Virus record (IMG/VR): IMGVR_UViG_3300032213_002773
Coordinates: 1-46,788 of that record
Length of the DNA stretch: 46,788 nt
From: a virus
Direction: 5' to 3' (one strand)
Shown here: positions 11,410 to 35,039 of the stretch, one piece after another
How the letters are laid out: each line of letters starts with the position of its first letter
Numbering within the stretch: the stretch's first letter is position 1
Translations under genes and position numbers: made by a program
Notes under the pieces: generated by a model
Databases searched by the model: none
What the model was told of the DNA's origin: nothing
The model's input: the letters and a program-made list of their open reading frames with translations, nothing else

Positions 11410-11438
11410 ATTATACCAAAGGTTTCTTATCACTCCAA
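11410..11438 (-). promoter_or_regulatory. Sigma-A-type promoter for the zinc protein and reductase
   Basis: On the minus strand, TTGGAG (11438-11433), a 17-base spacer, and TATAAT (11415-11410) preceded by TGG, an extended -10 element. It overlaps the last codons of the DNA polymerase gene and lies about 29 bases before the start of the small zinc protein. This suggests the nucleotide-metabolism genes have a boost separate from the replication genes upstream. Confidence 0.65.
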
Positions 11439-13414
11439 TAGGTTTCTGTAAATTCCACGTCACAAACAATCGGTATTTTTACGTCAGGCACATCTTCCAT
11501 AATCGCTCTGATTTTAGGTATTATCCAATCTTCATCTGACGGTACTTCAAACTGTAATTCATCGTGTACGCAGAGTATTAACTTGCTTTTTAGTTTATTG
11601 CTTACAAGGAAATCGTCAATCTCAATCATTTTAGTTTTAAGCATATCGGCACACGAACCTTGTATCACATAGTTTGCGGCTTTATAGTACCGCCAACTGT
11701 CAGATAGGTAGTATCTTCGACCATACAAATTCTGTGCGTAGCCTTTGTCATAATACGCTTTCTCAACCGCCTTCTGATACTCGATAACTAATGGAAATGC
11801 GTCGGTGTAACCTTTGTTGAGTGCCTTTGCGTGTTCCATATCAATATCTAACACTTCTGACGCTTTTTTATCACCGCCACCGTAGTTACGCATGAAGTTG
11901 AACATTTTACCGATATTACGCCAACGCTTAAACTCTTTCGGGTCAAGTTCTCGGTAATCAATACCCATCGCTTCGAGTGCTTTAATTGTCGTTGCCGAGT
12001 GGACATCAGTTGCTTCCCACTCTAAATGGTTTTCTTCCATGTACCAAACACCGTCTTTGTTGTAACACTTGAAAGGCATATACGCTCGGCATAGGTTCAA
12101 GTCACCGCCAAAATACATCGTATAATGTGCCTGTACACGCAACTCGACTTGTGAGTAGTCAAGGTAGTACGCACGACCTTTGAACGCTCTACGAGGGTTA
12201 AATACCTCGTTTCCTTGCTCGTCTGTGATGGCTTCCTTTGGAAACTGTTGTGCGTCACCTGAAAAGCGACCTGTGACGGTGTTGTGTGCGTTCATCTGTG
12301 TGTAAAAGCGACCATCGTATTCAGAGTCGTTCATAATCTTTTCAATGTACGTTGACTGCCACTTTTCAAGTCTGCGTAACGTCTTGATAATCTTTGCTAA
12401 CTCGTCACCGTTTGACGCTTGCTTGGTCAGAAACTTTTTGTCAGTTGACTCTGGGCGTTCGCCTGTTATGTCCGTATAAATGTCCTTAATCAGAGCGTGT
12501 TGACCGACTGCAAACTCACGACCTGCCAACTCATGCGACTTGATACGCAAATCTTCAATGTACTGCGACATACGATAGTGTGCTTCTTGCAGGTAACTTC
12601 TATCAACTTCTAATCCAACACGTTCCATTTTGTAAACAACAGGTATTAACTGAAACTCACGTTTGGCAACGTCTTGTTGCTCTTTACTTAACACAACAGG
12701 TGTTGCTTTTCTAACCACTAAGTTGGTTAGAATAACGTCGATAGCAAGGTACGGTAACATAATCTCTAACGGTACATCACGATACGTTGGTTTCGGGTAC
12801 TCACGTTGAAATTGATTGTAGATTTCCATTACCGAACATGGTACATCTTCCGCACCGTCTAACGCTCGTTGCAACCTCGCAAGCGACCAACCAACTGACT
12901 TTAACATAGCCATCAGTATTTTCTTGTCTGCTGACTCCTTTGCTTTTAGCCACGACTTGACTTCCTTCTCATATCGGTCAGATGTTGCGTCAATGTACTT
13001 TTTACCAATCTGTTTGAGTGCCAGACTGTCACCGCCATCTGACGAAGATACTGCTTCAAATATCAGGCGACACAATCCCATTGTATCGCCCCAATTTGTA
13101 ATCTCTAACGGTGCGTTATCTCCACATACATTAGCCATCATGTGCATATCGTAGGTGGTATTATGTGCATAAACACGACTGACCTTCTTTGACCAATTTA
13201 CTAACTCCGATAAAATGGTCGGGGGGAATACGAATACTTTACTATCCCACGCAATCGCACAAAGGAAAGGGCGACTTTTCTTAATGTGCAAACCATCAGT
13301 TTCGGTATCGAACGTGATGTACTGCGGTTTATCACGCTCTAACGCCTCGGTAATCGTGATCGGTGTTAAAGTATACGTGACTTCATATTCTTCATTCGCT
13401 ATCGTTAGTTTCAT
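11411..13414 (-). CDS. polA: Family A DNA polymerase with 3'-5' exonuclease
   Basis: 667 residues, T7-like in size. The exonuclease motifs are intact: FDTETDGL (D36, E38), AHNTTYDM (D89) and YLAIDV (Y222, D226). Polymerase motif A is LDYSQVELR (D419), motif B RNIGKMFNFMRNYG (R499, K503, F507) and motif C VHDE (H617, D618, E619). The Phe at 507 is the E. coli-type residue that disfavours dideoxynucleotides, unlike Tyr in T7. No 5' nuclease domain is present. It overlaps the methyltransferase by 23 bases. It is the replicative polymerase and presumably works with the primase-helicase upstream and host thioredoxin or none. Confidence 0.93.
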   Translation of the reverse strand: MKLTIANEEYEVTYTLTPITITEALERDKPQYITFDTETDGLHIKKSRPFLCAIAWDSKVFVFPPTILSELVNWSKKVSRVYAHNTTYDMHMMANVCGDNAPLEITNWGDTMGLCRLIFEAVSSSDGGDSLALKQIGKKYIDATSDRYEKEVKSWLKAKESADKKILMAMLKSVGWSLARLQRALDGAEDVPCSVMEIYNQFQREYPKPTYRDVPLEIMLPYLAIDVILTNLVVRKATPVVLSKEQQDVAKREFQLIPVVYKMERVGLEVDRSYLQEAHYRMSQYIEDLRIKSHELAGREFAVGQHALIKDIYTDITGERPESTDKKFLTKQASNGDELAKIIKTLRRLEKWQSTYIEKIMNDSEYDGRFYTQMNAHNTVTGRFSGDAQQFPKEAITDEQGNEVFNPRRAFKGRAYYLDYSQVELRVQAHYTMYFGGDLNLCRAYMPFKCYNKDGVWYMEENHLEWEATDVHSATTIKALEAMGIDYRELDPKEFKRWRNIGKMFNFMRNYGGGDKKASEVLDIDMEHAKALNKGYTDAFPLVIEYQKAVEKAYYDKGYAQNLYGRRYYLSDSWRYYKAANYVIQGSCADMLKTKMIEIDDFLVSNKLKSKLILCVHDELQFEVPSDEDWIIPKIRAIMEDVPDVKIPIVCDVEFTETYWSDKKPLV

Positions 13415-14933
13415 ACGCTAACAACACCTTTCCTAATGCGCTTATGACGTTTACTGTAACGGCATTCCCTGCCTGTTTGTATAACTGCGTGTCTGAAAGT
13501 TTTGCCTCAGTCAACTTGTCAAATTGATTGTCTGAAAATCCTTGTAGTCTGAAACATTCGCGCGGAGTAAGTTTGCGAATTTTGTACTCATGGACAACTG
13601 CCTGATGGCAACTTGTTTCAATCGTGTTCGCAATCTGTTTGCCTACACGTCCGCGACGCGTTTCGCTATTCGGCTGCGTGAAATTGATCGAATCGCCTTC
13701 TTCGGCAATTGCATAGCCGGTTTTCGTAGCTTCACGAACGGCAATTTTAGTTTCTGTATTGCCACCACCGTTTGTGTGTAATGTCGGCGACAATCCTTCG
13801 GCGTCGTACACACGCTTCAAGAAATCGTGTCCGTTTACGTCGATTCGTCCGACACACTCAACGTCCGGCTCGATAATACAACCACCACTTTTACAAACGC
13901 CACCTGTAACTGACGCAACTGTTTGTGGCAATCCTTCGGTGTCGTAAACTCTATTTCCTTGTGCGTTTTTATCAACATAGCCTATTTGATTTATTTTTGG
14001 CTCCACAAACTTTGCGGCGTCGGCTCTCGCTTCTAACGTTGGTGAAATTCCTTCGGCACTATAAACACGTCTTTGTCTTTCGTTGCGTGTCAACTCATGC
14101 GTCATGACGTGCGTTCTTTTTTGTTTGCCGACGTCACCCGGACCGATACCGTTACAATACGTTGCCGTCAATGGAAGAGAAATACCGCTGCCGTCGCTAA
14201 ATTGTTGCGACATGGATTTTATTGGTGGATTCTCATTCAGTCTTGCAATCAAGTTAGCCGTCTTTTCCGGCGTCAAATAAAATTTCGGTGCAACTTCGGC
14301 TTCTAAAATATCTTTCAGTCGCTTTTCAACGATTTTGTTTTTAGGAAACGTAAAATTAAACGTTTTTATTCCCAAATCTTTTACACGCTTTTTAGTTTTT
14401 GCCGTAATATCGTTTCCGACAATTTCCCAATCCGAATGTTCGGCGTCACGATTCGCTACAATAAAGATTCGTTCACGGCTTTGTGGAACGCCGAAATACT
14501 TACTGTTTAACACTTGAAAATCAATCGCATAGCCGATTTCGTGGAGAATCTGACACATTGTGTCGAACGTATTGCCTTTATCGTGTGAAAGCAATCCTTT
14601 TACGTTTTCTAACAATAGCCATTTCGGACGCTTTTCAGACGCTATTCGTGCGATTTCAAAGAATAGCGTTCCGCGTGTATCTTCAAAACCTTTTCGGTGT
14701 CCTGCCATACTGAACGCTTGGCAAGGAAAACCACCGACAAGAAAATCATGATCTGGAATATCCTTCTCGTCAATTTTAGTTATATCGCCGTGTAACTCTT
14801 CACCGCCGTATAGCGTTTTATACGACGTCACGGCGTATTTGTCGATTTCGGACGAAAAAACACACTCCATACCAAGTGCGTCCAACGCCGAACGAAAACC
14901 GCCAATCCCTGCAAATAACTCTACATATTTCAT
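13392..14933 (-). CDS. DNA cytosine-5 methyltransferase with repeated target-recognition segments
   Basis: 513 residues. All main motifs are seen: FAGIGGFRSAL (I), PCQAFS with catalytic C71 (IV), ENVKG (VI), QSRERIF (VIII) and GNAVTVNV (X). It transfers a methyl group from AdoMet to C5 of cytosine, probably to shield phage DNA from host restriction. Between motifs VIII and X, residues ~240-445 contain four related units beginning RVYSAEGISPTL (289), RVYDTEGLPQTV (328), RVYDAEGLSPTL (374) and RGRVGKQIANTI (427). This is like multispecific phage methyltransferases. It overlaps the primase-helicase by 4 bases (ATGA). No cognate restriction enzyme is seen. Confidence 0.92.
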   Translation of the reverse strand: MKYVELFAGIGGFRSALDALGMECVFSSEIDKYAVTSYKTLYGGEELHGDITKIDEKDIPDHDFLVGGFPCQAFSMAGHRKGFEDTRGTLFFEIARIASEKRPKWLLLENVKGLLSHDKGNTFDTMCQILHEIGYAIDFQVLNSKYFGVPQSRERIFIVANRDAEHSDWEIVGNDITAKTKKRVKDLGIKTFNFTFPKNKIVEKRLKDILEAEVAPKFYLTPEKTANLIARLNENPPIKSMSQQFSDGSGISLPLTATYCNGIGPGDVGKQKRTHVMTHELTRNERQRRVYSAEGISPTLEARADAAKFVEPKINQIGYVDKNAQGNRVYDTEGLPQTVASVTGGVCKSGGCIIEPDVECVGRIDVNGHDFLKRVYDAEGLSPTLHTNGGGNTETKIAVREATKTGYAIAEEGDSINFTQPNSETRRGRVGKQIANTIETSCHQAVVHEYKIRKLTPRECFRLQGFSDNQFDKLTEAKLSDTQLYKQAGNAVTVNVISALGKVLLAYETNDSE

Positions 14934-17734
14934 ACGCCAACACTTCCTTCTTGTGATAATGGTATTAGTTTTGATTTCGGATATTCGGCACGATATGCGT
15001 CAACCGCCAATCGTAACCGACGTGTAGCCAACAATCCATTCGGATTTACTGTAACTAAAAAATTGGATGATAACTTGTTAACTAACTCTGAAAATTGATT
15101 GCGTTCCAAACCGGAAACTGCTTGCAAGTTACCCATTGGAACAGGCGACACGCTGTTGAGTAATGTTTTAACTACCATCGGACTGCTTTTGCATATAGAC
15201 GCTACAATCTGATTTACCGATTCGTTCGTTTCGTTGTAGGCTCGTCTTTCACGGACGTAATCTCCCAAACGAAACACATTGTTATCGTAATTACGAGTAA
15301 GAAAATCGCTTGCCCAATCCACATGGTGTTTTGTAACAATAGCACTGTTCCAATCATCACTGCAACTAAAAGTAGCACAAGCACAGGCAGTGGCAATTCG
15401 AGCAACTTTCTTCCAACATTCCGCACCAAAGAATTTAATGTCTGTGTCATATTTCTCATTGAGTTCGTTAGCCACTTGAACAATATACTCTTCAACTCCT
15501 TCTTCAAACAATATTTGGTCTGCTGTTCGTGTCCACACCCATTTGATTAAGTTTGCGTACACGTCAGGCTCATAGGCTTCGACTGTCGGTGTGTCTAACG
15601 GTGATGAATCGTGGTCTTTGGTAATAAGCATACACGCGTCAAACCGTGCTATATCTTCATCGCTACCGATTAGGTCGAGCATAACGTGTGTTCCTGTCGG
15701 ATAATCTTTAATATTGACGGATTGACCACTGCTATTCACTCGTGGGTTACTGCACCAAAGCAAACGTGTTTCGGCAGGTGCTTTACCCTTCACAATCTTA
15801 TGCACTGTTGCCATTCGCTCAGAACGCATTGCAGTCAAACTTGCCATGACTTCTCTTGGCATACCTGACAATTCGTCCATCACCACCAGACCTTTATGGT
15901 TACGTGGCACTGTACCCCAATTTATCTTGAAACCGCCTGTTGTCAGTTTGTCAGCACCGCCTAACACACCTGCGGTAGTAGCGCCTTTTAGTGCCATGAA
16001 ATTACCAATCTCCACATACCTCTGAAACATCAGCGCCGTTTCAGTTTTACCTGTTCGACTTTCGCCACAAATAAGAATTTCAGGGTAGCCTTTCATTTCG
16101 CGTCCGTGAAATTTGAATCGCAACGGCGAATGATACATCAAGTCCACTGCATTTGCAATCATGGGGTTAGGTTTAAAAACCTTCGTAAAGTTATGGTGTT
16201 GCTCTGCTCGATTTGCCATGACTTCAAACGGATTACCCTGAAACACTTTTAACTGCTTGGCTATCTCGTCAGTCATTTCAAATGCGTTAATTGCGTTGTC
16301 ACTTTCTTCCACTCGGTCTACAATCATGAATACTCGCTGACCATCTAATGGGTGTGCGTAGGGCTTAAAGAACGCTCGGTATCGCTCACCGTCTTGTAGG
16401 TTCAGTCCCAACGTGTATGCGTACTGTTCGACTGCTCTGTATTCTTCTGTTTCTTCGCTAGGCACATCTGGTGTAAATACAACTTTGTAAACAGGTTTTC
16501 GAGCCTTGACCGTTCTTCTGACTCCTGGACATTTTTGAGGGAGTCCAATAAATTTCTGTATCGCTTTGTCTTGTTGTTGTTCATTTACGTCTACCAACTC
16601 CATAACATCTTTTAGGTTTTCTTCTAACGTCCACCAGCCGCTTTTACCGACAAACGGACAAGTGTGGCAGGGCGAACGCTCTGATGTAAGACTAGGGTTG
16701 TTGCAACACCATTCAATCGCCGTTGGTGTTTGCATTGGACTGTCGTATCTGCTTGACAATAACACACGAGCCGACACTCTACGACCTGCGTAGCGACCTT
16801 CTGCAATGTCCCACAAGTTAATCACAGGATATACGGTATCTTTATCTTCTTTGTGCATATCTTCGTTGTACTTTACTGCGTTTTCGATTCGTTGGTATAA
16901 ATCATCGGCTGTTTGGTTATGCTTGATAACGAAGTCGGTCAGGTCTTTGCTTTCCTTCGTTCCCTCTAACCCCAAATCGACCATGTAGACATCTGCACCG
17001 ACTTCACTCAATATGAAGGCTACTGACCTTGAACCTCTACGACCTGCTTCATCACAATCGTAGCAGATACTAACTTTTCGGTTAGCAAACAAGTTAGCAA
17101 ACACCTTCGGGAAATTACCTTCCCCTGCGGTAACGGTGACTGCGTTGAAACCTAACTGTCTTGCAAGTAATGCGTCGTTTTCGCCTGCACAAAGCAGTGT
17201 ATCACGCTCGTCGGCTATCCAATTATCAAACGGAAATAAAAGCGGTGAAGCACCCTTTTTTGACCGTATTTTAGGCTGTCCGTTAGGCACATAAGTGCGA
17301 ACATCACACAACTGACCGTAGATTGTGATAGGGTACATAATTCCGTCGCCACCGTAGGCAAGACGGTATTTTCTAATGGTTTCGTCAGTTAATTCTCTGT
17401 TATTAAGAAACTCCATCAGTTCAATGTTGTTGTGAAGCAACTTCTGTGCTTCGTCCCACTGCTCTAAGTCTTCGCCTTTTTCAATAGTCTGCACTAACTG
17501 AATGGCTTGCTCGTAACTAACTCCGTAAAACTCAGCAACGAAACCTATCTCAGAAAGACCACCTTTGTCAAACCTGCCTTCTGCCTGACACGTCTTGCAG
17601 TGGAACAGTCTTTTATCTACGTTTACGTGTGCTGACGGATTCCGCTCGTACCCTTTATCGTGTGGAAAAGGGCATAGTACATTCGCCTCACCGTTAGATT
17701 TAACCGAAAGGTTTGTAAATATTTTTTCAAACAC
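14930..17734 (-). CDS. DnaG-type primase fused to an MCM-like AAA+ replicative helicase
   Basis: 934 residues from a GTG start at 17734 (AGGGGGG ribosome site). Domain order: CHC2-type zinc finger (C21, H25, C46, C49); Toprim (E185 in CAGEND, D226 and D228 in YDCDEAG); an OB-fold-like part with a Cys cluster (C343/C344, C356, C359, C402); and an AAA+ core. The core has Walker A GESRTGKT (557-564), an MCM-like KGATTAGV segment, Walker B LVVMDE (616-621), sensor 1 CSNP (N663) and an arginine finger IARFD (R697), as in the MCM SRFD motif. It would unwind DNA and lay primers. The layout is that of T7 gp4, but the helicase is MCM-type, not DnaB/RecA-type. Confidence 0.88.
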   Translation of the reverse strand: MFEKIFTNLSVKSNGEANVLCPFPHDKGYERNPSAHVNVDKRLFHCKTCQAEGRFDKGGLSEIGFVAEFYGVSYEQAIQLVQTIEKGEDLEQWDEAQKLLHNNIELMEFLNNRELTDETIRKYRLAYGGDGIMYPITIYGQLCDVRTYVPNGQPKIRSKKGASPLLFPFDNWIADERDTLLCAGENDALLARQLGFNAVTVTAGEGNFPKVFANLFANRKVSICYDCDEAGRRGSRSVAFILSEVGADVYMVDLGLEGTKESKDLTDFVIKHNQTADDLYQRIENAVKYNEDMHKEDKDTVYPVINLWDIAEGRYAGRRVSARVLLSSRYDSPMQTPTAIEWCCNNPSLTSERSPCHTCPFVGKSGWWTLEENLKDVMELVDVNEQQQDKAIQKFIGLPQKCPGVRRTVKARKPVYKVVFTPDVPSEETEEYRAVEQYAYTLGLNLQDGERYRAFFKPYAHPLDGQRVFMIVDRVEESDNAINAFEMTDEIAKQLKVFQGNPFEVMANRAEQHHNFTKVFKPNPMIANAVDLMYHSPLRFKFHGREMKGYPEILICGESRTGKTETALMFQRYVEIGNFMALKGATTAGVLGGADKLTTGGFKINWGTVPRNHKGLVVMDELSGMPREVMASLTAMRSERMATVHKIVKGKAPAETRLLWCSNPRVNSSGQSVNIKDYPTGTHVMLDLIGSDEDIARFDACMLITKDHDSSPLDTPTVEAYEPDVYANLIKWVWTRTADQILFEEGVEEYIVQVANELNEKYDTDIKFFGAECWKKVARIATACACATFSCSDDWNSAIVTKHHVDWASDFLTRNYDNNVFRLGDYVRERRAYNETNESVNQIVASICKSSPMVVKTLLNSVSPVPMGNLQAVSGLERNQFSELVNKLSSNFLVTVNPNGLLATRRLRLAVDAYRAEYPKSKLIPLSQEGSVGV

Positions 17735-17756
17735 ACACTAGCCCCCCTTTTTTGTG

Positions 17757-17817: not shown

Positions 17818-18294
17818 TTAAAACGGCGATACGTTACTGCTTGGAGTCGGTGCGGAGAAAGGGTCGCTCGGTTGTGCGTTTGTAGGTGCTTCTGCAACAG
17901 TGTAAGCACCGACACGTTCGCGCGTTTTCGTTTCGCCTTGATACGTGTCTTGTTCGTGTTTAATCTGAATGGTGACAGGTTTGAAAAGAATCGCCTGTGC
18001 GAACTCCTGGATTGAACTTACGCTCTTTCCGTTTTCCAAACCGACAGCCTTTGCAACTTGTTGAAATTTCCATTTTGCTTTCTCGGTGTCAACAATGTAG
18101 TCCCAAACTCTGCGTGTTCCAAACTCCTGCTTCACATCATCACGGATAATAAGTGTCACTTTAATCATATCGTTGCCAGAACTAGACTTGGCGATTTCGA
18201 CTTCTTTTATGATTGCTTGATACTTGCCTTCGTCAATCGTTTTGAACTCTTTCTTTTCGTTATTTCCTTCGTTGTGGTTTACTGTTAAAAACAT
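17818..18294 (-). CDS. DUF669-type single-stranded DNA-binding protein
   Basis: 158 residues matching the DUF669 phage family: DEGKYQAIIKEVEIAKSSSGN, then MIKVTLIIRDD and a VWDYIV strand followed by a KWKFQQVAKAVGL helix. The C-terminus is Pro/Ser-rich and ends SNVSPF, similar to the protruding tail of SSB proteins that contacts partners. The family is usually annotated as SSB or as a helper in replication and recombination. It is encoded just before the primase-helicase and after the Sak4-like ATPase. A promoter for it alone was not found. Confidence 0.75.
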   Translation of the reverse strand: MFLTVNHNEGNNEKKEFKTIDEGKYQAIIKEVEIAKSSSGNDMIKVTLIIRDDVKQEFGTRRVWDYIVDTEKAKWKFQQVAKAVGLENGKSVSSIQEFAQAILFKPVTIQIKHEQDTYQGETKTRERVGAYTVAEAPTNAQPSDPFSAPTPSSNVSPF

Positions 18295-18739: not shown

Positions 18740-19498
18740 TCACCCCCTCACATAGCCTAATTTATTGAAAACCTCTGACCACGCAGGGTTGTAGATAACC
18801 GCAGGCAACGGTTCTCTACCTTTAGGCTGGCGAACGCCTGCTTGATAAATCCCTGCGTTTTGTGTCAACACACCCCGTTTGATTACATCTTCTTCGACTT
18901 TGTTGAACATATAGAAGATACCATCAACGTGTGCCATTACAATATCGGCTGTGTCTTTGCCTTGTAGTTGAATCTTGGTGGACACAACCTGCTCAGTCAA
19001 GTCGTCTTTCACAACACCTTCGTGTGCAATCCACATGACGTGCCTTGACTTATCGCCTCGCTTGGTAATTCCATGCCATACTTTTACAATCGCCAGAAGA
19101 GTGTCACGTAAGTCGCCCCAATCAGCCATAGCACCAAATTTGCCTGGAATCTCACGCTTACGATTCGGTGCGTATTCTTTGGCGACGTATTCTTTGACTA
19201 ACTCTTGCAGGCGACTGATGGAGTCGATAAAAATTAGGTCATAGTCAAAGTCGCCTTCTTTCTCAATGTAACCTCGTTGCACCATTTCCGTGAACTCACG
19301 AAATTGGTTTAGGTTATCAATCGCAACACGGTCAACATTCTTTGCGTCGGCAAGTACGGCAGTACCACCTTCCATGTCGGCAATCAACACCTTGAACTTC
19401 GGGTCGTCTGCGGTACTTGTCTTGCCTGTCTTTGGCTTGCCGTAAAGCAAGCCATGAAACCCTTCTCTTACTTCGGCAGGTTTAGTAATTTTAATCAT
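18740..19498 (-). CDS. Sak4-like RecA-fold ATPase (single-strand annealing)
   Basis: 252 residues. Walker A GKPKTGKT at residues 20-27, Walker B LIFIDS (D92), and MWIAHEG resembling the sensor/L1 region. This matches the Sak4/AAA_24 family of phage RecA-like proteins, which assist single-strand annealing with an SSB. The gene starts within the stop region of the gene upstream (19498 shared). Neighbours are a Cas4/RecB-type nuclease and an SSB, together forming a recombination set. It is shorter than RecA and lacks RecA's C-terminal domain. Confidence 0.8.
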   Translation of the reverse strand: MIKITKPAEVREGFHGLLYGKPKTGKTSTADDPKFKVLIADMEGGTAVLADAKNVDRVAIDNLNQFREFTEMVQRGYIEKEGDFDYDLIFIDSISRLQELVKEYVAKEYAPNRKREIPGKFGAMADWGDLRDTLLAIVKVWHGITKRGDKSRHVMWIAHEGVVKDDLTEQVVSTKIQLQGKDTADIVMAHVDGIFYMFNKVEEDVIKRGVLTQNAGIYQAGVRQPKGREPLPAVIYNPAWSEVFNKLGYVRG

Positions 19499-19765: not shown

Positions 19766-20719
19766 CTACACACTCTCCTTTGTGAATAATTGTTCTGTTA
19801 GATAATCAACATTAGAACCGTCCATGCCTGCAACACAGATGTTCTGATACGGGCAGTCCCACGAGCAGTCTTTCGTGATGTTACGATACACACGAGCATT
19901 GTCCATGTCGCTCGTTACATCAAGCATTTCAGCAATCGCATTGTCAACCTCGGCTTGATTGCGGTATACTTTCAAACGTCGGAAGAATCGGTTGCCGTCT
20001 GGCGTTTCCTGTGCTTGTAGATAATCAAGCATTTCTCGGTAGTCATTCGGGTCAAAGTCGTTTACCTGAATGGTTCTTAGGTAAAGGTCGTATGTTGTTT
20101 TCTGCGACTTGTTCTGCGACAGTGTGCCGTTTTTAAGCGTGGCTGGCGGTGTCGGGTAGTCTTTCAACACGATGTTGTAGATAAAACCTGCTACATCATA
20201 ACCTAACTGTTGTAACGCCCACCAATATCGGCTAATCTGTCTGTCCATGTCGGCACGTTGCAGGTAACTATCAACACTGCTTGTTGTCTTATGGTCTACG
20301 AACCAAATCTTGCCGTCACGGTCTTTTAATATGAGGTCAATCGTGCCTGTGTAATTAACCGTATCTGTCAAAGGAATTGAGAATTGCAACTCGGTTGCAA
20401 TAACTTGATACTGAGAGTCTGTTCTTGCCCACTGTGCAAAGTAATTCTCGGCTACGTTGTAAGCCAAATCCCACAACTCGTCAATCACTACTTGTTCCAT
20501 ACCTGATGTGTCAGTTTCGTCAAACAATTTTTTCATGGCGGTTAGTGCTTGTGCTTGACTTCCGTTTTTATAAAACTCTTCAAGATACTTGTGAAACATT
20601 GTGCCGAAGAATAACTTGTCGTTCGGTGTTTTTGGTTTTAAGCGTTCGTTCCAACCGTAATTCCACTTTGTTCTACATCTGAGAAAGTCGTTAACTTCTG
20701 TTCCTCTGATTGCTCGCAT
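19766..20719 (-). CDS. PD-(D/E)XK nuclease with Cas4/AddB-type iron-sulfur cysteines
   Basis: 317 residues. RecB-family nuclease motifs: FHKYLEEF (H43), TGTIDLIL (D128), FVDHKTT (D142, K144) and DRQISRYWW (Q161). Four cysteines are arranged as in Cas4 and AddB, one N-terminal (C15) and three C-terminal (C285, C289, C295), and probably hold a 4Fe-4S cluster. It is expected to resect DNA ends, providing single strands for the Sak4-like ATPase. No CRISPR array or cas1/cas2 is nearby, so I infer recombination and not spacer uptake. Its start overlaps the upstream gene by 82 bases. Confidence 0.85.
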   Translation of the reverse strand: MRAIRGTEVNDFLRCRTKWNYGWNERLKPKTPNDKLFFGTMFHKYLEEFYKNGSQAQALTAMKKLFDETDTSGMEQVVIDELWDLAYNVAENYFAQWARTDSQYQVIATELQFSIPLTDTVNYTGTIDLILKDRDGKIWFVDHKTTSSVDSYLQRADMDRQISRYWWALQQLGYDVAGFIYNIVLKDYPTPPATLKNGTLSQNKSQKTTYDLYLRTIQVNDFDPNDYREMLDYLQAQETPDGNRFFRRLKVYRNQAEVDNAIAEMLDVTSDMDNARVYRNITKDCSWDCPYQNICVAGMDGSNVDYLTEQLFTKESV

Positions 20720-20949: not shown

Positions 20950-20987
20950 TGTAATACAATATTACATTAAAAAAATTTGGTTGTCAA
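20950..20987 (-). promoter_or_regulatory. Promoter with palindromic operator for the recombination/replication operon
   Basis: On the minus strand TTGACA (20987-20982), a 17-base spacer, TAATAT (20964-20959). The -10 region lies inside a perfect inverted repeat, TGTAATA-CAA-TATTACA (20950-20966, plus-strand reading). The -35 box overlaps the stop codon of the SNF2-type helicase gene. A related arrangement occurs at 24114-24143, which suggests shared control by one DNA-binding protein. Confidence 0.65.
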
Positions 20988-22573
20988 GCATTTTTTTGTA
21001 ATAAATTTTTTATTGCCTTAATTCCTCCTTCGTTTATCAAGTCCGTGATGGATTTTTTCTGTTCGAGAAGCCTGTTGATAAACTCGTCTACGGTGTCCTG
21101 GCATACAAACGATACAATCTGGTGTTTGTGTACATTGTGTTCTGTGGTTGGTGTGATACGGTCTTCGGCTTGCTCGTTGTCGGCAGGATTCCACGCCTTG
21201 TCTGTGAAGATAATCGTTTCGGCACGGTCAAGCGTGAAGCCTGTACCTGCTGAAATAATGTTGCATAGCAATACATCAATCTCACCCCTTTGGAATTGTT
21301 CTGCTATTCGTTGTTTCTCTCTACTATCTATTATACCTGTGATTTTTGCAATTTTACGGTCTTTTGCAAAAATATTTTCTAATTTGTCTAAATAACTTGA
21401 AAACAAGGACATAATCACAACAGGTTCGTTTAGTTCGTACACATATTCCACAAGTGCTTCGGTCTTGGCTGACGGTGCGTCGAAGCCTACAAGCGAAGGG
21501 TCTAAACATAACTGACGTAATCTTGTCAGTTGTGCGAGGATAGACGGTGCGTCAAGTTCAACATCGCCTTCGGAAGTCGAGAAGTAAGACAACATTTCGT
21601 CATAAAGTTTCTTCTGCGGTCTTTCCATTTCACAGTAGAAAGTCGTGTACTGCTTGTCAGGTAGCCATTGCATGACTTCTTTACGCTTGCGTTGCACCGA
21701 TAGCAAACCTGTCATGGTTTGTAACTCTTCCACACGCTTTAGTACAGGCTCGCCTACTTCTGAGTGTCCCATGAAGTTTTGTCCAACCTCAAAATAACGG
21801 TCTGCAAATTGCCAATAGGACGGAAACTTGGTTGGGTACAGGAAGTGAAAGATACCAAAAATATCGACTGCGTGTTTGACTGTCGGCGTTCCTGTCAGAG
21901 CGTACTTACGTTTGGCTTTGATTTTAAAAATCGCTTTTGACTGTGCGGTTTTGTAGTTTCGGAGAAAGTGCGCCTCGTCAACTATAGCCATATCGTACTC
22001 ACACTCTAACCAATGCTTTGCGGTCTTCAAACGGTCTTTAGATATAATCACAACACCGCTATCGTATTTTATTTCCCTGTTGTTTTTTACCACATACGTT
22101 TGTTTTTCGGGATACCACTTCTCAAACTCACGTTGCCAATTAAATATGAGTGAAGCAGGGGCAACGATAAGTGTTTTGTGCGGTTTAAGGTGTTTGATTA
22201 GGTTAATGACTGTCGGTGTCTTACCTGTGCGAGGCTCGTTGAACACGCCTGCACACGTTAACTCTTTCAGATAGTCAATGTCAGCGTTCTGATACTCACG
22301 TAACTGTTCGTGGTACACGTTCGGAAAGGGAAGTGCTTTTACCATCAGCAAGCGGTCTGCTTCCTGTTTTAGTTTCTCCCCCATATGTTGCACCGATTGT
22401 GTACGAACACTCGGAAATTTGTTCCATAACTCACGAAGCGACCACAAGTTGAGAGGTATTTTGAACCCTCGCTTTTTTGAATAAACGGCTTTTAGGTCGT
22501 TTTCAAGCATACGTCGCTCGGCTACAGTCACGTTTGTTGCATAAATAAAATCGTTGGTAAAATCTAACGTCAT
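20984..22573 (-). CDS. SNF2-type superfamily 2 helicase
   Basis: 529 residues. Motif I NEPRTGKT (112-119), motif Ia VAPASLIFNW, motif II DEAH (199-202), motif III ALTGTP, then the second RecA fold with VIMSLFSSYL, LLCNIISAGTGFTLDRA and EQAEDRITPTTE (motif VI-like with Arg). This is the compact SNF2/RapA-like helicase frequent in phages. It may act as an ATP-dependent translocase in replication initiation or fork repair. The ribosome site is AGGAGAG. It has no extra accessory domain. Its upstream neighbour, two bases away, is a zinc-ribbon protein that may be a partner. Confidence 0.88.
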   Translation of the reverse strand: MTLDFTNDFIYATNVTVAERRMLENDLKAVYSKKRGFKIPLNLWSLRELWNKFPSVRTQSVQHMGEKLKQEADRLLMVKALPFPNVYHEQLREYQNADIDYLKELTCAGVFNEPRTGKTPTVINLIKHLKPHKTLIVAPASLIFNWQREFEKWYPEKQTYVVKNNREIKYDSGVVIISKDRLKTAKHWLECEYDMAIVDEAHFLRNYKTAQSKAIFKIKAKRKYALTGTPTVKHAVDIFGIFHFLYPTKFPSYWQFADRYFEVGQNFMGHSEVGEPVLKRVEELQTMTGLLSVQRKRKEVMQWLPDKQYTTFYCEMERPQKKLYDEMLSYFSTSEGDVELDAPSILAQLTRLRQLCLDPSLVGFDAPSAKTEALVEYVYELNEPVVIMSLFSSYLDKLENIFAKDRKIAKITGIIDSREKQRIAEQFQRGEIDVLLCNIISAGTGFTLDRAETIIFTDKAWNPADNEQAEDRITPTTEHNVHKHQIVSFVCQDTVDEFINRLLEQKKSITDLINEGGIKAIKNLLQKNA

Positions 22574-24046: not shown

Positions 24047-24080
24047 TTACCGTTACCGTTACACTACCGTTACCGTTACG
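24047..24080. repeat. CCGTTA tandem array, left copy
   Basis: Plus-strand TTACCGTTACCGTTAC, then ACTA, then CCGTTACCGTTACG: four CCGTTA units in two blocks. On the minus transcript it is leader sequence of the operon starting at 24016. A matching array is at 28655-28675. Confidence 0.75.
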
Positions 24081-24466: not shown

Positions 24467-24535
24467 TTACACCCCCTCTCGTGTGAAGAATCGTTTGACT
24501 TGCCACCAAAAACCGCGCTTGCTAGGCGTTACCAC
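24467..24535 (-). CDS. Possible 22-residue cationic peptide coupled to the amidotransferase stop
   Basis: GTG at 24535 overlaps the amidotransferase stop (GTGGTAA) and the frame ends two bases before the next ATG. The sequence is MVTPSKRGFWWQVKRFF plus TREGV, cationic with two tryptophans. Only GAGAG lies upstream as a weak ribosome site. The tight packing is suggestive, but the frame may be chance. Confidence 0.25.
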   Translation of the reverse strand: MVTPSKRGFWWQVKRFFTREGV

Positions 24536-25578
24536 GGCACTCTCGTGTACTTTTCTGTCGCTTGTTCTAACCCCCTCTCGCATATATCCTGAAAAACCAG
24601 ACGCAGTTCGTCGTATAAAAGCGAGTGGACGTCGTTCGTCCGAATAGCGTCCGTCAAGTCGCGGTAATTGCAACGTCTTACTAGCAACTCGCCTTCCTCG
24701 TATGTTAACCCGAAGTCGATGAGTTCCTGAATCATGTAGTCATCTTCGCGTTGGCGAAAATAATCCCTCGTCGAAGTCGTGGTATACGGGGTTGTGGTCG
24801 AGCCACCGTTAGCAATCGCGTATTTCGAGGCGTTGTGCGTACTGTAAAAGCGACGTTGCGGTGTAAACGTGCTAACCGCAAACTTGCCTGCTGAGTCAAT
24901 GTGAATGATTCGACCTTCCTCGACTCGCATAACCGTGTAATTGTCGCCCAAACCTGCTGACTTGAGTCCGTGTTTGACGATTGCCTCAGTCGAGCCGTAC
25001 ACATACAGGTTGTGCTTCTTGTAATACACCATGTGAATCGGCGAGTCGTTGCGAATGAGCCAGAAGTCTTCGTTTGATTCGAGTATCGAGAACGCGAACA
25101 TACCTTGTACGAGTTGACTCGACTCGACAACCGAGTTGATTGTCAACGTGTCGTCGCTCTGAGCGTATTTTTCGAGCAGTTGAACGGCAACATAACTGTC
25201 AGTTTCAATGTCCGTGTTTGGCAATGACTCGTCATAACGCAACTCGTAATCGTTGTCGAGAACGCCGTTGTGAGCGAGAGCAAACGTCGTCTTGCGTGTT
25301 GCACCGATAAACGGGTGGTTGTTTTGGTTTTTCCATTGTGTTCCTTGCGTTGTCGCACGTGTGTGACCGATAACCGACGTAACGCCTTTCGGAATGTCGA
25401 TAACGAAGTCAGTCGCAGGCACAGCCGCCTTAACCACGCACAGGTGGTTGTTGACGTTGTAAGCAATTCCTGTTGCGTCTGAGCCGCGTACCTGAGCCGC
25501 GACTGCCAATCCTTTTACAAGTCCGTTCGTGTTAATACCTTTGCTACCTCTGTTGATGAATCCGTATAATCCGCACAT
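24529..25578 (-). CDS. Class II (Ntn-type) glutamine amidotransferase
   Basis: 349 residues. Removal of Met exposes Cys2 (MCGLYGF) as N-terminal nucleophile. The rest of the glutaminase site is complete: RGSDATG (R31-G37), GHTRATTQG (71-79), HNG (103-105) and TDS (D127). It should release ammonia from glutamine. It lacks the sugar isomerase domain of GlmS and the synthetase domains of PurF or AsnB. The C-terminal ~75 residues are helical and unassigned, so ammonia must go to a separate acceptor enzyme. The neighbour upstream is an amidoligase, the natural partner. Ribosome site AAAGGAG. Function in the phage is inferred only. Confidence 0.88.
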   Translation of the reverse strand: MCGLYGFINRGSKGINTNGLVKGLAVAAQVRGSDATGIAYNVNNHLCVVKAAVPATDFVIDIPKGVTSVIGHTRATTQGTQWKNQNNHPFIGATRKTTFALAHNGVLDNDYELRYDESLPNTDIETDSYVAVQLLEKYAQSDDTLTINSVVESSQLVQGMFAFSILESNEDFWLIRNDSPIHMVYYKKHNLYVYGSTEAIVKHGLKSAGLGDNYTVMRVEEGRIIHIDSAGKFAVSTFTPQRRFYSTHNASKYAIANGGSTTTPYTTTSTRDYFRQREDDYMIQELIDFGLTYEEGELLVRRCNYRDLTDAIRTNDVHSLLYDELRLVFQDICERGLEQATEKYTRVPW

Positions 25579-25630: not shown

Positions 25631-25654
25631 AAACCACCCATTAAAGGGTGGTTT
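25631..25654 (-). terminator. Hairpin at the amidoligase stop (weak terminator)
   Basis: A perfect 9-bp stem AAACCACCC/GGGTGGTTT with a 6-base loop, overlapping the amidoligase stop codon. On the minus strand the right arm runs into TTTTCGC. Partial termination would reduce, not abolish, expression of the amidotransferase; it may also only protect the message end. Confidence 0.5.
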
Positions 25655-27224
25655 CCACGAACTCGACATCGTATTGTGAAAGCGGTGTCGGGTCGTCAAG
25701 CGTTGCAAGGTCGGTGTGAAGCATATTCTGCGTGTCGAACGACAGCGACTTTGACGTTGGGTGCGACTCGAATTTGACGATAAAACGTCGCGAATCCTGT
25801 CCGACGACACGAACAATTGACCCTAACTCGTAATAATGTCTGTTGTGACTGTTGTTGCCTATCACAACGAGGCTTTGTCCTAACACAATTTGCTTGGTCG
25901 GCAATGGTTTGAACTTGCGACGAGGCGTTTGCAATCTGTGTAGGTTACGTTGCGTCATGTAATCGTTCAACTCGGTGAAATTGGACACCTTCGCGAGTTT
26001 CACGACGGTTTGCCAGGACAGGTTGTTAACCGCAATGTCCTTGAGGTTCGCGAGTTGGCGCATAACGTCCATGAACTGAACAGACGCAAGGAAAGTATCG
26101 ACGTTTAGTGTACCACGGAACGCACGGACTTCGAGCGTGTGTCTGTGTAGCAGATTTACAATGCGATACTTCTCGCGAGAAGCAGTCGCTAGTTTGTCGG
26201 CAAACGAACGGTTCGTGTCGTCGTCGTTATACACGCCGTAACGGTCAGCCCAACGCTCGTAGTTGTAACGTGAACGACGAGAGAAAGTGAGAATTTGCTC
26301 GTAAAAACGCTCGAACAGGAACACGAAGTTGTCAACCGCTCTTTCGTTTTTGAAAGCCTTCTTGCTAACGTGAATATGCAAGCCGCACGTTTCAGTCTGG
26401 TGTGCGCGGAAGTGATTCGCAAGCGCAAAATCGAACGCTTTCTTGAACAGTTGCTTGTTTTCCGTGATAAACGCAAGTGTCATAGGGTGTGTGACGGCTT
26501 CAAACCCGTAGTTCGTTAGCGAGCCGTCTTCCTTGTTATACGTAATCGGGTAGTCCTCGTACTTCATGTTGTCGTCGAAGAAGTTCGCAACTGCAACACG
26601 ATTTGCCTGTCCCACGTTATTGCGACCATCTATCTCAATCTCACAACCGTAGAAAACTTGCGTGTCGCGTGGTTCACTAGGAAGCATGAAAAAGTACGTT
26701 TCAGGGCGATAATTGTACGGGTGTATACAGCAAGACTCATTCATGTTGAACGACGAATACTCGCAATCGTGTTCGCGGTAGCAGTATCTACACATAAATT
26801 CGTCGCAAGCACCACACTCGCGTTGGTCGTCGGTATGGTGAATCTCGTCGCACGTTTCACACGTGAACCACGAACCGTGGTTGTAATCCTCGACGGAAAT
26901 GTAACCGTGATTCGTAGTCGAGTACGTGTCGTCCTTGTGCCACCACTCGTCGTTGTACGTGTAACGGAAGCGGTCGTCGACAACATCTTCGTGAACCCAA
27001 CCTTCGGTCTTGACGTTACGCTGCGTCCAATAAGCGTGTGTGAAGTGGTCTTCGTGGTCTAGGACGACCTCGCCCCGACGCATATTGAAACTGTACTCGC
27101 AAATACGGAAATGCGCCTTAATGCAATCAGTACACGTAAGACCCTGCTCGGTTTCAAACAGACTTGCTCGTGGTAACACTACGTCGCACGTTTCACACGT
27201 AAACTCAATCGTCTTTTCTGTCAT
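25641..27224 (-). CDS. Amidoligase (COOH-NH2 ligase) with N-terminal zinc fingers
   Basis: 527 residues from ATG 27224 (GGAGA at 8 bases; a GTG at 27233 is too close). N-terminal CxxC pairs (C10/C13 and C31/C34), then a second cysteine-rich module around residues 122-155 (CETCDEI, ECGACDEFMCRYC). The core matches the phage/bacterial amidoligase family Amidoligase_2: YGCEIEIDG (E195, E197), NKEDGSLTNYGFEAVTHP (231-247), CGLHIHVS (H283, H285) and LEVRAFRGT (E365, R367). This is a glutamine-synthetase-like fold that joins an amine or ammonia to a carboxylate with ATP. The last ~90 residues resemble a small SH3/KOW-like barrel (GQSLVVIGN, GSIVRVVG). The substrate is unknown; zinc fingers suggest a protein or nucleic-acid target. 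Confidence 0.82.
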   Translation of the reverse strand: MTEKTIEFTCETCDVVLPRASLFETEQGLTCTDCIKAHFRICEYSFNMRRGEVVLDHEDHFTHAYWTQRNVKTEGWVHEDVVDDRFRYTYNDEWWHKDDTYSTTNHGYISVEDYNHGSWFTCETCDEIHHTDDQRECGACDEFMCRYCYREHDCEYSSFNMNESCCIHPYNYRPETYFFMLPSEPRDTQVFYGCEIEIDGRNNVGQANRVAVANFFDDNMKYEDYPITYNKEDGSLTNYGFEAVTHPMTLAFITENKQLFKKAFDFALANHFRAHQTETCGLHIHVSKKAFKNERAVDNFVFLFERFYEQILTFSRRSRYNYERWADRYGVYNDDDTNRSFADKLATASREKYRIVNLLHRHTLEVRAFRGTLNVDTFLASVQFMDVMRQLANLKDIAVNNLSWQTVVKLAKVSNFTELNDYMTQRNLHRLQTPRRKFKPLPTKQIVLGQSLVVIGNNSHNRHYYELGSIVRVVGQDSRRFIVKFESHPTSKSLSFDTQNMLHTDLATLDDPTPLSQYDVEFVETTL

Positions 27225-27384
27225 TTTGTACACTCTCCTGTTATTGTATAATGTGTGTTACTTGTTTGGGTTGTTGTACACAACCCAGATTACCAGGCGA
27301 ATTGTGATATACGACCATAGCAGAAAATCTGAAACATGGAACTCGAAGACAACCACCCCCTCTCGTGTTTTGTGTGTATGTGTA

Positions 27385-28654: not shown

Positions 28655-28675
28655 TACCGTTACCGTTACCGTTAC
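28655..28675. repeat. CCGTTA tandem array, right copy
   Basis: Plus-strand TACCGTTACCGTTACCGTTAC: three and a half units of the hexamer found at 24047-24080. The two arrays are about 4.6 kb apart and bracket the amidotransferase, amidoligase and HTH genes. Confidence 0.75.
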
Positions 28676-34205: not shown

Positions 34206-35039
34206 ATGTCAGACCCAAACAAGTTGGAAGACTACGCTGAGGACTTTGAGTTTGAAGAAGAAGACTTTGAAGCCGAAGCACCCGAAGAAGAAGTAGTCGA
34301 ACCCGAAGAGGAAGAAGAGTACGAAGAAGAGTATGAGGAAGAGTATGAGGAAGAGTATGAGGAAGAGTATGAGGAAGAAACTCCGCCTGCTAATACGCAA
34401 ACTTCTGAGCAAAATGCTTACTATGCGGAACAACGCAGGCAAAATCTTGTAGAACAACGTGTTCAACAAGAGTTGCAAAAGTTGAAACAAGAAGCACCAG
34501 AGTTTCAAATGGCGCAAATGCTTTCAGAAATGTACGGAATCCCTGTTAACGAACTTCATCAACAACTTCAAGAAAAAAGGTTGGAAGAAGAGGCTAAGCA
34601 AAAGGGTGTCCCGCTCGAAGTTATGAAGCAATTAAACGCCTACGAACAGAATCAATCTCAGTTGCAAGAACAGTTGTACTTCATGCAGTTCCAAAATTGG
34701 CAAAATCGCATTAACGAAGAAGCCAACCAAATGACAAATCAATATCCAATGCTTGACGAGCAGGATATTGAGGAAGCAAAACACTTTTTGTTAGACACGC
34801 TTCAAAATCCCGAAATTCCATTGCAAAATGCTGTGTTTGCACTTCACGGTGATAAAATTGCTTCAAGCCTGAAAGAACTTGCCAAACAAGAGGCGTTAGC
34901 AGAAATATCTGGACGCAAAAGAGGCGGTCTACCGCCACAAGGCAAAGGAACAGTCGAAGGCAGTACACTGTCGGACGAAGAACGCTACATCGCAAAGAAT
35001 ATGGGATTATCAGAAGCAGATTATCTAAAATGGAAATAA
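34206..35039 (+). CDS. Capsid scaffolding protein
   Basis: 277 residues. The N-terminal ~60 residues are almost all Glu/Asp/Tyr, with five EEEY-like repeats encoded by a 12-bp DNA repeat (34311-34370). The middle is a Gln-rich helix. The C-terminus (RGGLPPQGKG, then MGLSEADYLKWK) is a typical scaffold tail that binds capsid subunits. Position between portal and capsid supports this. It is expected to leave the prohead during maturation. No protease motif is seen, so removal without cleavage is likely. Confidence 0.85.
   Translation: MSDPNKLEDYAEDFEFEEEDFEAEAPEEEVVEPEEEEEYEEEYEEEYEEEYEEEYEEETPPANTQTSEQNAYYAEQRRQNLVEQRVQQELQKLKQEAPEFQMAQMLSEMYGIPVNELHQQLQEKRLEEEAKQKGVPLEVMKQLNAYEQNQSQLQEQLYFMQFQNWQNRINEEANQMTNQYPMLDEQDIEEAKHFLLDTLQNPEIPLQNAVFALHGDKIASSLKELAKQEALAEISGRKRGGLPPQGKGTVEGSTLSDEERYIAKNMGLSEADYLKWK
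34311..34370 (+). repeat. 12-bp tandem repeat in the scaffold gene
   Basis: Five units of GAGGAAGAGTAT or near copies (the first two with GAA in place of GAG and one TAC in place of TAT). They encode five Glu-Glu-Glu-Tyr units. Copy number could vary by slippage without shifting the frame. Confidence 0.85.

Follow-up and report, generated by a model that had tools for sequence, protein, structure and literature searches.

What kind of helicase can a phage join to its primase in a single chain? The usual phage partner of Toprim primases is a DnaB/RecA-fold helicase. The virus record IMGVR_UViG_3300032213_002773, taken here entire as the window (46,788 bases), raises this question, as the original prediction read in it one protein with a DnaG-type primase in front and an MCM-type helicase behind. 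The open reading frame (ORF) is indeed there at 14930-17734 on the minus strand, encoding 934 amino acids plus a stop from a GTG start, with a G-rich ribosome-binding-like stretch ahead of it at 17742-17747. We show that this one polypeptide carries both a DnaG-type primase and an MCM helicase with their active-site and ATPase residues intact. It is, with high probability, the phage's own primase-helicase, consisting of the primase and a complete MCM ring-helicase subunit. Its layout is as follows.

14930..17734, minus strand: complete ORF of 934 amino acids, a primase of DnaG type joined to a helicase of MCM type (Pfam, profile search, AlphaFold2 model)
16835..17734, minus strand: primase module of DnaG type, residues 1-300 (separate AlphaFold2 model covering 1-310, Foldseek, VIA-align)
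17492..17686, minus strand: CHC2 zinc finger, residues 17-81, with C21, H25, C46 and C49 (Pfam PF01807, 30.6 bits)
16934..17191, minus strand: Toprim domain, residues 182-267, with E185, D226, D228 and D264 (Pfam PF13155, 23.5 bits)
16280..16834, minus strand: residues 301-485, OB-like MCM N-terminal tier with candidate zinc cysteines C343/344, C356, C359 and C402 (VIA-align, cysteine counts)
15245..16279, minus strand: residues 486-830, AAA+ motor and helical lid (profile search, AlphaFold2 model, structure comparison)
16043..16066, minus strand: Walker A GESRTGKT, residues 557-564 (K563 in 59/59)
15872..15889, minus strand: Walker B LVVMDE, residues 616-621 (E621 in 59/59)
15644..15646, minus strand: R697, the arginine finger in the ARFD motif (59/59, a count biased upwards)
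14930..15244, minus strand: residues 831-934, C-terminal helical or winged-helix-like tail (model secondary structure; outside the structural alignments)

The N-terminal half is a primase of the bacterial and T7 kind, as had been predicted from its CHC2 and Toprim domains. Both exceed the curated Pfam cut-offs, CHC2 with 30.6 versus 24.9 bits and Toprim_2 with 23.5 versus 22.1 bits. A profile of 59 relatives, searched against the PDB sequences, finds Aquifex DnaG (2au3) at an E-value of 1.8e-27 and the T7 gp4 primase at 4.7e-12. The AlphaFold2 model of residues 1-310 alone has a mean predicted local distance difference test (pLDDT) of 93.3, and its top Foldseek chains in the PDB are DnaG, T4, T7 gp4 and Twinkle, 2au3 being the best (E 3.5e-16).

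By VIA-align, the primase half superposes on 2au3 with a Z of 21.4 (root mean square deviation, rmsd, of 3.0 over 211 residues), on the B. subtilis DnaG RNA polymerase domain with 20.5 (rmsd 3.4, 205 aligned) and on gp4 of the T7 replisome, 5ikn_D, with 19.2 (rmsd 3.3, 192 aligned). Other kinds of Toprim proteins reach a Z of 10 at best against this model. The protein thus shares the zinc-binding and RNA polymerase domains of bacterial DnaG, but its primase is covalently joined to the helicase, and the DnaB-binding C-terminal domain of DnaG gives no Pfam (E ≤ 10) or NCBIfam (E ≤ 1) match in it. Because the MCM module occupies that place, we call the primase DnaG-type rather than bacterial DnaG proper. 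An archaeo-eukaryotic primase (AEP) is not found in the window protein either by Pfam (E ≤ 10) or with the AEP hidden Markov model (HMM) made here.

Conservation was counted in alignment A2, for which 58 of 80 loci were hand-picked for long matches. The Toprim residues E185, D226, D228 and D264 are invariant (59/59), and the CHC2 ligands are nearly so: C21, C46 and C49 in 58/59 each and H25 in 55/59. These counts bear on the idea that the primase module is inactive and only loads or oligomerises the ring, as in animal Twinkle, which we regard as quite improbable. The actinobacterial phage relatives speak for it, as they give no Pfam CHC2 match at E ≤ 1 and the last CHC2 cysteine is gone in all three examined. 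However, every one of the 12 tested catalytic and zinc positions is intact in the window protein and in 57/59 aligned relatives, and the ratio of nonsynonymous to synonymous substitution rates (dN/dS) of the primase module is 0.09–0.10 in the two unsaturated pairs of three.

The three relatives without that cysteine belong to Microbacterium and Arthrobacter phages (L009, L010 and L012), so the zinc finger may differ there. Over all modules, dN/dS is 0.05–0.15 in 10 of the 12 comparisons with the three closest relatives, the other two being saturated at synonymous sites. Purifying selection acts on every module of the fusion.

The C-terminal half is an MCM-type helicase. The Pfam MCM model (PF00493) matches residues 526-669 with 30.3 bits over a cut-off of 23.3, so the predicted MCM and Toprim domains both stand above their Pfam thresholds. 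The profile of relatives finds the MCM 4fdg in the PDB at 6.7e-12, and among the best 60 of its 82 matches every one is a DnaG/T7-type primase or an MCM. The full-length AlphaFold2 model has a mean pLDDT of 89.2 and a predicted template modelling score of 0.77, and the best 50 of its 634 Foldseek matches in the PDB (E ≤ 0.001) are all MCMs.

In the full model, residues 299-830 align by VIA-align with residues 102-607 of the MCM 6mii_E (Z 29.5, with an rmsd of 5.6 over 451 residues). The stretch 486-830, taken by itself, aligns with an MCM motor tier (303 aligned, rmsd 3.0, Z 27.4). The span of the former shows that the match takes in the N-terminal tier besides the motor. The predicted OB-like part with a cysteine cluster before the motor is borne out in that residues 299-485 superpose on this tier and the candidate zinc cysteines (C343/C344, C356, C359 and C402) fall within them. 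The predicted ligands C356, C359 and C402 are kept in 48/59, 49/59 and 48/59 rows of A2.

The named motifs are also in place, with GATTAGV at 584-590, LVVMDE at 616-621 and ARFD at 696-699. The AAA+ residues K563, E621, N663 and R697 are invariant (59/59), the R697 count being biased upwards since ARFD served as a search pattern. The model has strand pairs at 592-596/602-606 and 641-644/650-653, where the helix-2 insert and pre-sensor-1 hairpins are expected. Near the second pair, position 646 is lysine or arginine in 56/59.

If the motor were not MCM, it might be of the RecA/DnaB fold, making the protein a T7 gp4-like primase-helicase. The resemblance is real in the N-terminal half, which matches the T7 gp4 primase, and both gp4 and Twinkle have CHC2 and Toprim domains in front of a ring helicase on the same polypeptide. 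Yet T7 gp4 is matched only within the primase (profile positions 84-243), the model of the motor fits MCM in superposition, and DnaB_C gives no match in the window contig or in any of the 14 related records, so that a gp4-like motor is hardly credible. The difference is thus in the helicase, RecA/DnaB-fold in gp4 and Twinkle and MCM-type AAA+ here, and the expected polarity and threaded strand of those enzymes are opposite to those of MCM. As DnaB_C gives no match there, the fusion is the only recognised replicative ring helicase candidate within the limits of contig completeness.

Structure prediction could also have given a D5-like fold, and neither this nor RecA/DnaB appeared; MCM did instead. 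D5, VirE and SF3-like folds are not among the matches listed from Pfam, the PDB profile search or the PDB Foldseek search. A D5, VirE, DUF927 or DUF3987 motor is likewise absent from the best 50 PDB matches, a statement that covers the listed families. Among the viral models of BFVD, DUF3987 and MoxR-like ones do occur as matches; whole-model matches of long proteins in BFVD often exceed an rmsd of 20, and these were left unused.

Some points weigh against our reading. The Pfam MCM model is unspecific, as it matches all 14 control genomes including E. coli and B. subtilis, and is therefore weak evidence alone. Compared with the archaeal and eukaryotic MCMs, with which it shares the N-terminal tier, the AAA+ motor with MCM motifs and the lid, the window protein has its own primase and is very divergent, identity to the solved MCMs being only 10–16%. 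Relatives were collected with motif patterns that favour conserved residues at R657-P664 and E693-D699. The virus record is of unstated completeness, and a DnaB may be encoded elsewhere in the genome. Hexamer, polarity and primer synthesis are predicted only, and the strand assignment goes by analogy.

The first of these points leaves room for another helix-2-insert AAA+ motor of the Mg-chelatase, ComM or MoxR type, being MCM-like in the AAA+ core only. Such a motor would fit the weak Mg_chelatase match of 17.7 bits and the MoxR-like viral models as well, although that match stays under its cut-off of 20.3 bits and is outscored by Pfam MCM. In the best 60 of 82 profile matches only MCMs cover the motor region, and both ARFD and the motif after Walker A resemble those of MCM. 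Moreover, the structural match covers the MCM N-terminal tier at residues 299-485, and to our knowledge the Mg-chelatase-type ATPases are without such a tier. We therefore consider this type of motor very unlikely.

The original prediction described the fusion in one phage protein. It is no peculiarity of this phage: the family is widespread, and public records often give its members the label 'DNA primase' or 'DNA primase/helicase' already. By tblastn, 96 phage records match and 45 of them are covered over at least 80% of the window protein. The matching phages include Paenibacillus larvae phages SV21 and API480, Weizmannia phage Youna2, Bacillus phages BSP7 and BSTP and many Microbacterium phages, and Arthrobacter phage Wollypog is covered to 79%. 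The weaker partial matches, of Gordonia phages and most plasmids, are to the primase only. Among viral contigs, 254 of the 309 pattern-matched stretches encode a relative, of which the best 80 were kept.

With the HMMs made here, the relatives are mostly fused rather than split, the DnaG module lying in the same chain in 112 of the 129 distinct helicase-bearing ORFs. Both modules are nearly complete in 106 of these 112 (92 from viral contigs, 7 from named phages, 6 from genome contigs and the window's own). Fourteen genome-contig loci were confirmed; seven have the helicase fused (four Clostridia metagenome-assembled genomes (MAGs), one Nealsonbacteria, one Spirochaetia truncated by the contig end and one Acidobacteriota MAG) and the other seven are primase-only matches.

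Eleven of the 129 helicase ORFs have no detected primase. Five of them (L018, L098, L099, L109 and L115) start at the first bases of their loci and are likely truncated, L110 and L121 (two pieces) are split into several frames, and one is a distant haloarchaeal virus protein (L091). Only L096:3886-5718 and L105:7527-9680 resemble real family MCM helicases without a fused zinc finger or Toprim, and a Toprim_2 search of their two records gives no match.

Two public labels look wrong. The Youna2 protein (L007:5941-8958) is labelled 'DNA primase small subunit' yet has Toprim at 42.2 bits and no AEP match, and the Manatee Spring phage protein (L006:5959-8805) is labelled 'DNA directed DNA polymerase'. 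Our literature search found no description of a DnaG-MCM fusion, the survey of Kazlauskas et al. 2016, which may mention it, lying outside its coverage. According to PMC5862659, which also discusses AEP-MCM, bacterial MCMs were previously known from bacteriophages and mobile elements.

Six relatives carry an AEP on the same helicase: Bacillus phage vB_BboS-125, a B. velezensis plasmid and four viral contigs.

L011:4426-7506; L090:4924-8016; L092-L095: AEP-type relatives

The vB_BboS-125 protein has an N-terminal AEP (DNA_primase_S, 40.8 bits) and an MCM helicase (49.7 bits), and matches the window protein from residue 443 onward only. Toprim_2 gives no match in the AEP records searched (vB_BboS-125, L092 and L095). 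With an HMM built only from A2, of DnaG-type members, the AEP-type helicases score 466–487 bits, as against 22–71 bits for nine archaeal or archaeal-virus MCMs with the helicase or AAA+ HMM. Hence, the helicases of the DnaG-MCM and AEP-MCM proteins belong to a single divergent lineage of phage MCMs, and what sets the proteins apart is the primase.

The first tree has 73 rows: 54 of the 101 DnaG-type ORFs (every second ORF and the named phages), six AEP types, seven without primase and six of the nine outgroup proteins. The window row and L001-L004 are absent from the trees and are represented by L013 and L016 (58–59% identical). The AEP members group as a single clade. It lies within the DnaG types whether the tree includes archaeal outgroups (supports 95 and 98) or none (94 and 97). 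With two long-branched rows dropped, the clade falls outside the DnaG types with a support of 37. As the trees conflict, we claim the exchange without its direction: unrelated primases have been swapped on a single MCM chassis, at least one exchange being needed.

AEP-MCM fusions of the BcMCM type are known from Bacillus phages and prophages (McGeoch and Bell 2005; Samuels 2009; Sanchez-Berrondo 2012, as cited in PMC4538821 and PMC5862659). They resemble the window protein in the N-terminal primase and C-terminal MCM helicase but have an AEP/PriS-type primase instead of the DnaG type. The helicase is shared with AEP-MCM through vB_BboS-125, which we infer to be of the BcMCM type, and the five others; when the vB_BboS-125 protein was searched against the PDB, MCMs matched but no BcMCM chain did. 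PMC4538821 describes BcMCM as a 3′-5′ helicase that also acts as primase and polymerase, so the DnaG-MCM fusion is plausibly active too. The predicted independence of the design therefore holds relative to T7 gp4, which has a non-MCM helicase fold. It does not hold relative to AEP-MCM, and the novelty is the primase swap on a common MCM chassis.

The gene lies in a same-strand replication module, with the exonuclease, a Sak4-like recombinase and a gene resembling single-stranded DNA-binding proteins (SSB-like) upstream and a methyltransferase, DNA polymerase A (PolA), ribonucleotide reductase and thymidylate synthase downstream.

20984..22573, minus strand: DNA helicase, counterparts in related phages labelled DEAD/DEAH-box or UvsW helicase (phrog_62, 1.4e-93)
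19766..20719, minus strand: exonuclease (phrog_1218, 2.9e-61)
18740..19498, minus strand: Sak4-like recombinase (phrog_124, 6.4e-34)
17818..18294, minus strand: SSB-like gene (phrog_378, 1.6e-25)
13392-14933, minus strand: DNA methyltransferase, its start overlapping the primase-helicase stop by four bases
11411..13414, minus strand: family A DNA polymerase, PolA (phrog_17, 1.4e-93)

Terminase, portal, capsid and internal virion proteins are encoded to the right, so this is a tailed phage. A similar module surrounds the Youna2 relative (helicase, nuclease, RecA/Sak4-like ATPase and DUF669-type gene), and BSP7 has comparable genes there. In SV21 the relative has an SSB gene nearby; in Krampus and Wollypog its surroundings include genes of the RecB-like and RecA-like kinds.

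The context bears on whether the ring works at the fork. It might instead be an initiator, in which the MCM ring melts the phage origin, the host DnaB takes over and the fused primase lays the first primers only. Origin-specific helicases of mobile elements are known (SCCmec Cch2, PMC7581432), and the C-terminal tail here is winged-helix-like in the model. However, the phage's own PolA and SSB-like genes adjoin the fusion, fitting an autonomous fork, and the scanned ORFs include no recognised helicase-loader gene, though no search was aimed at loaders. The initiator is on balance unlikely. SCCmec Cch resembles the window protein as an MCM-like helicase on a bacterial mobile element, but the parts of PMC7581432 and PMC5862659 on it describe no fused DnaG-type primase.

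Elsewhere in the window, GGTAAC units are repeated at 24047-24079 and 28660-28675 and may be binding sites or origin elements. An identical 85-base pair of copies, 102 bases apart, lies at 130-316 in-frame in an ORF leaving the left end and encodes a repeated Pro/Gly/Gln-rich peptide. A 12-base tandem repeat at 34299-34378, next to structural genes, encodes an acidic stretch. A glutamine-amidotransferase-like gene occupies 24529-25578, and 25641-27233 encodes a 530-residue protein whose sole match is phrog_16683, of unknown function.

How might the fusion work as the phage's own fork helicase and primase? MCM rings move 3′-5′ on the leading-strand template with the N-terminal tier ahead. By analogy, six subunits would form an MCM-like ring that travels in the same way, with the primase on the leading N-terminal tier, where the other strand is peeled off. 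Since MCM travels with this tier first and the primase is at the N-terminus, it would be the excluded lagging strand that receives the RNA primers for the phage PolA. The proposed geometry would be the reverse of T7 gp4, whose primase acts on the strand leaving the ring, and would resemble the eukaryotic CMG, in which Pol alpha-primase sits on the N-terminal face.

Taken as a whole, the picture of a self-contained phage primosome of CMG-like geometry that primes the excluded strand, opposite to what T7 and bacteria do, with DnaG and AEP primases having replaced one another on the MCM chassis, has in our view an even chance of being right. In the well-known machines, DnaG-type primases go with 5′-3′ DnaB-type rings and AEP primases with 3′-5′ MCM rings. 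The DnaG-MCM family breaks this usual pairing within one polypeptide. If the picture is true, the primase type and the helicase type would be separable evolutionary modules, and the AEP sister group on the same helicase would be a natural exchange experiment. The family includes phages isolated on laboratory hosts, such as Bacillus phage BSP7 and Microbacterium phage Krampus, and may offer a single-protein system for how a primase catches the strand outside the ring, which is otherwise a matter of the many-subunit CMG-Pol alpha.

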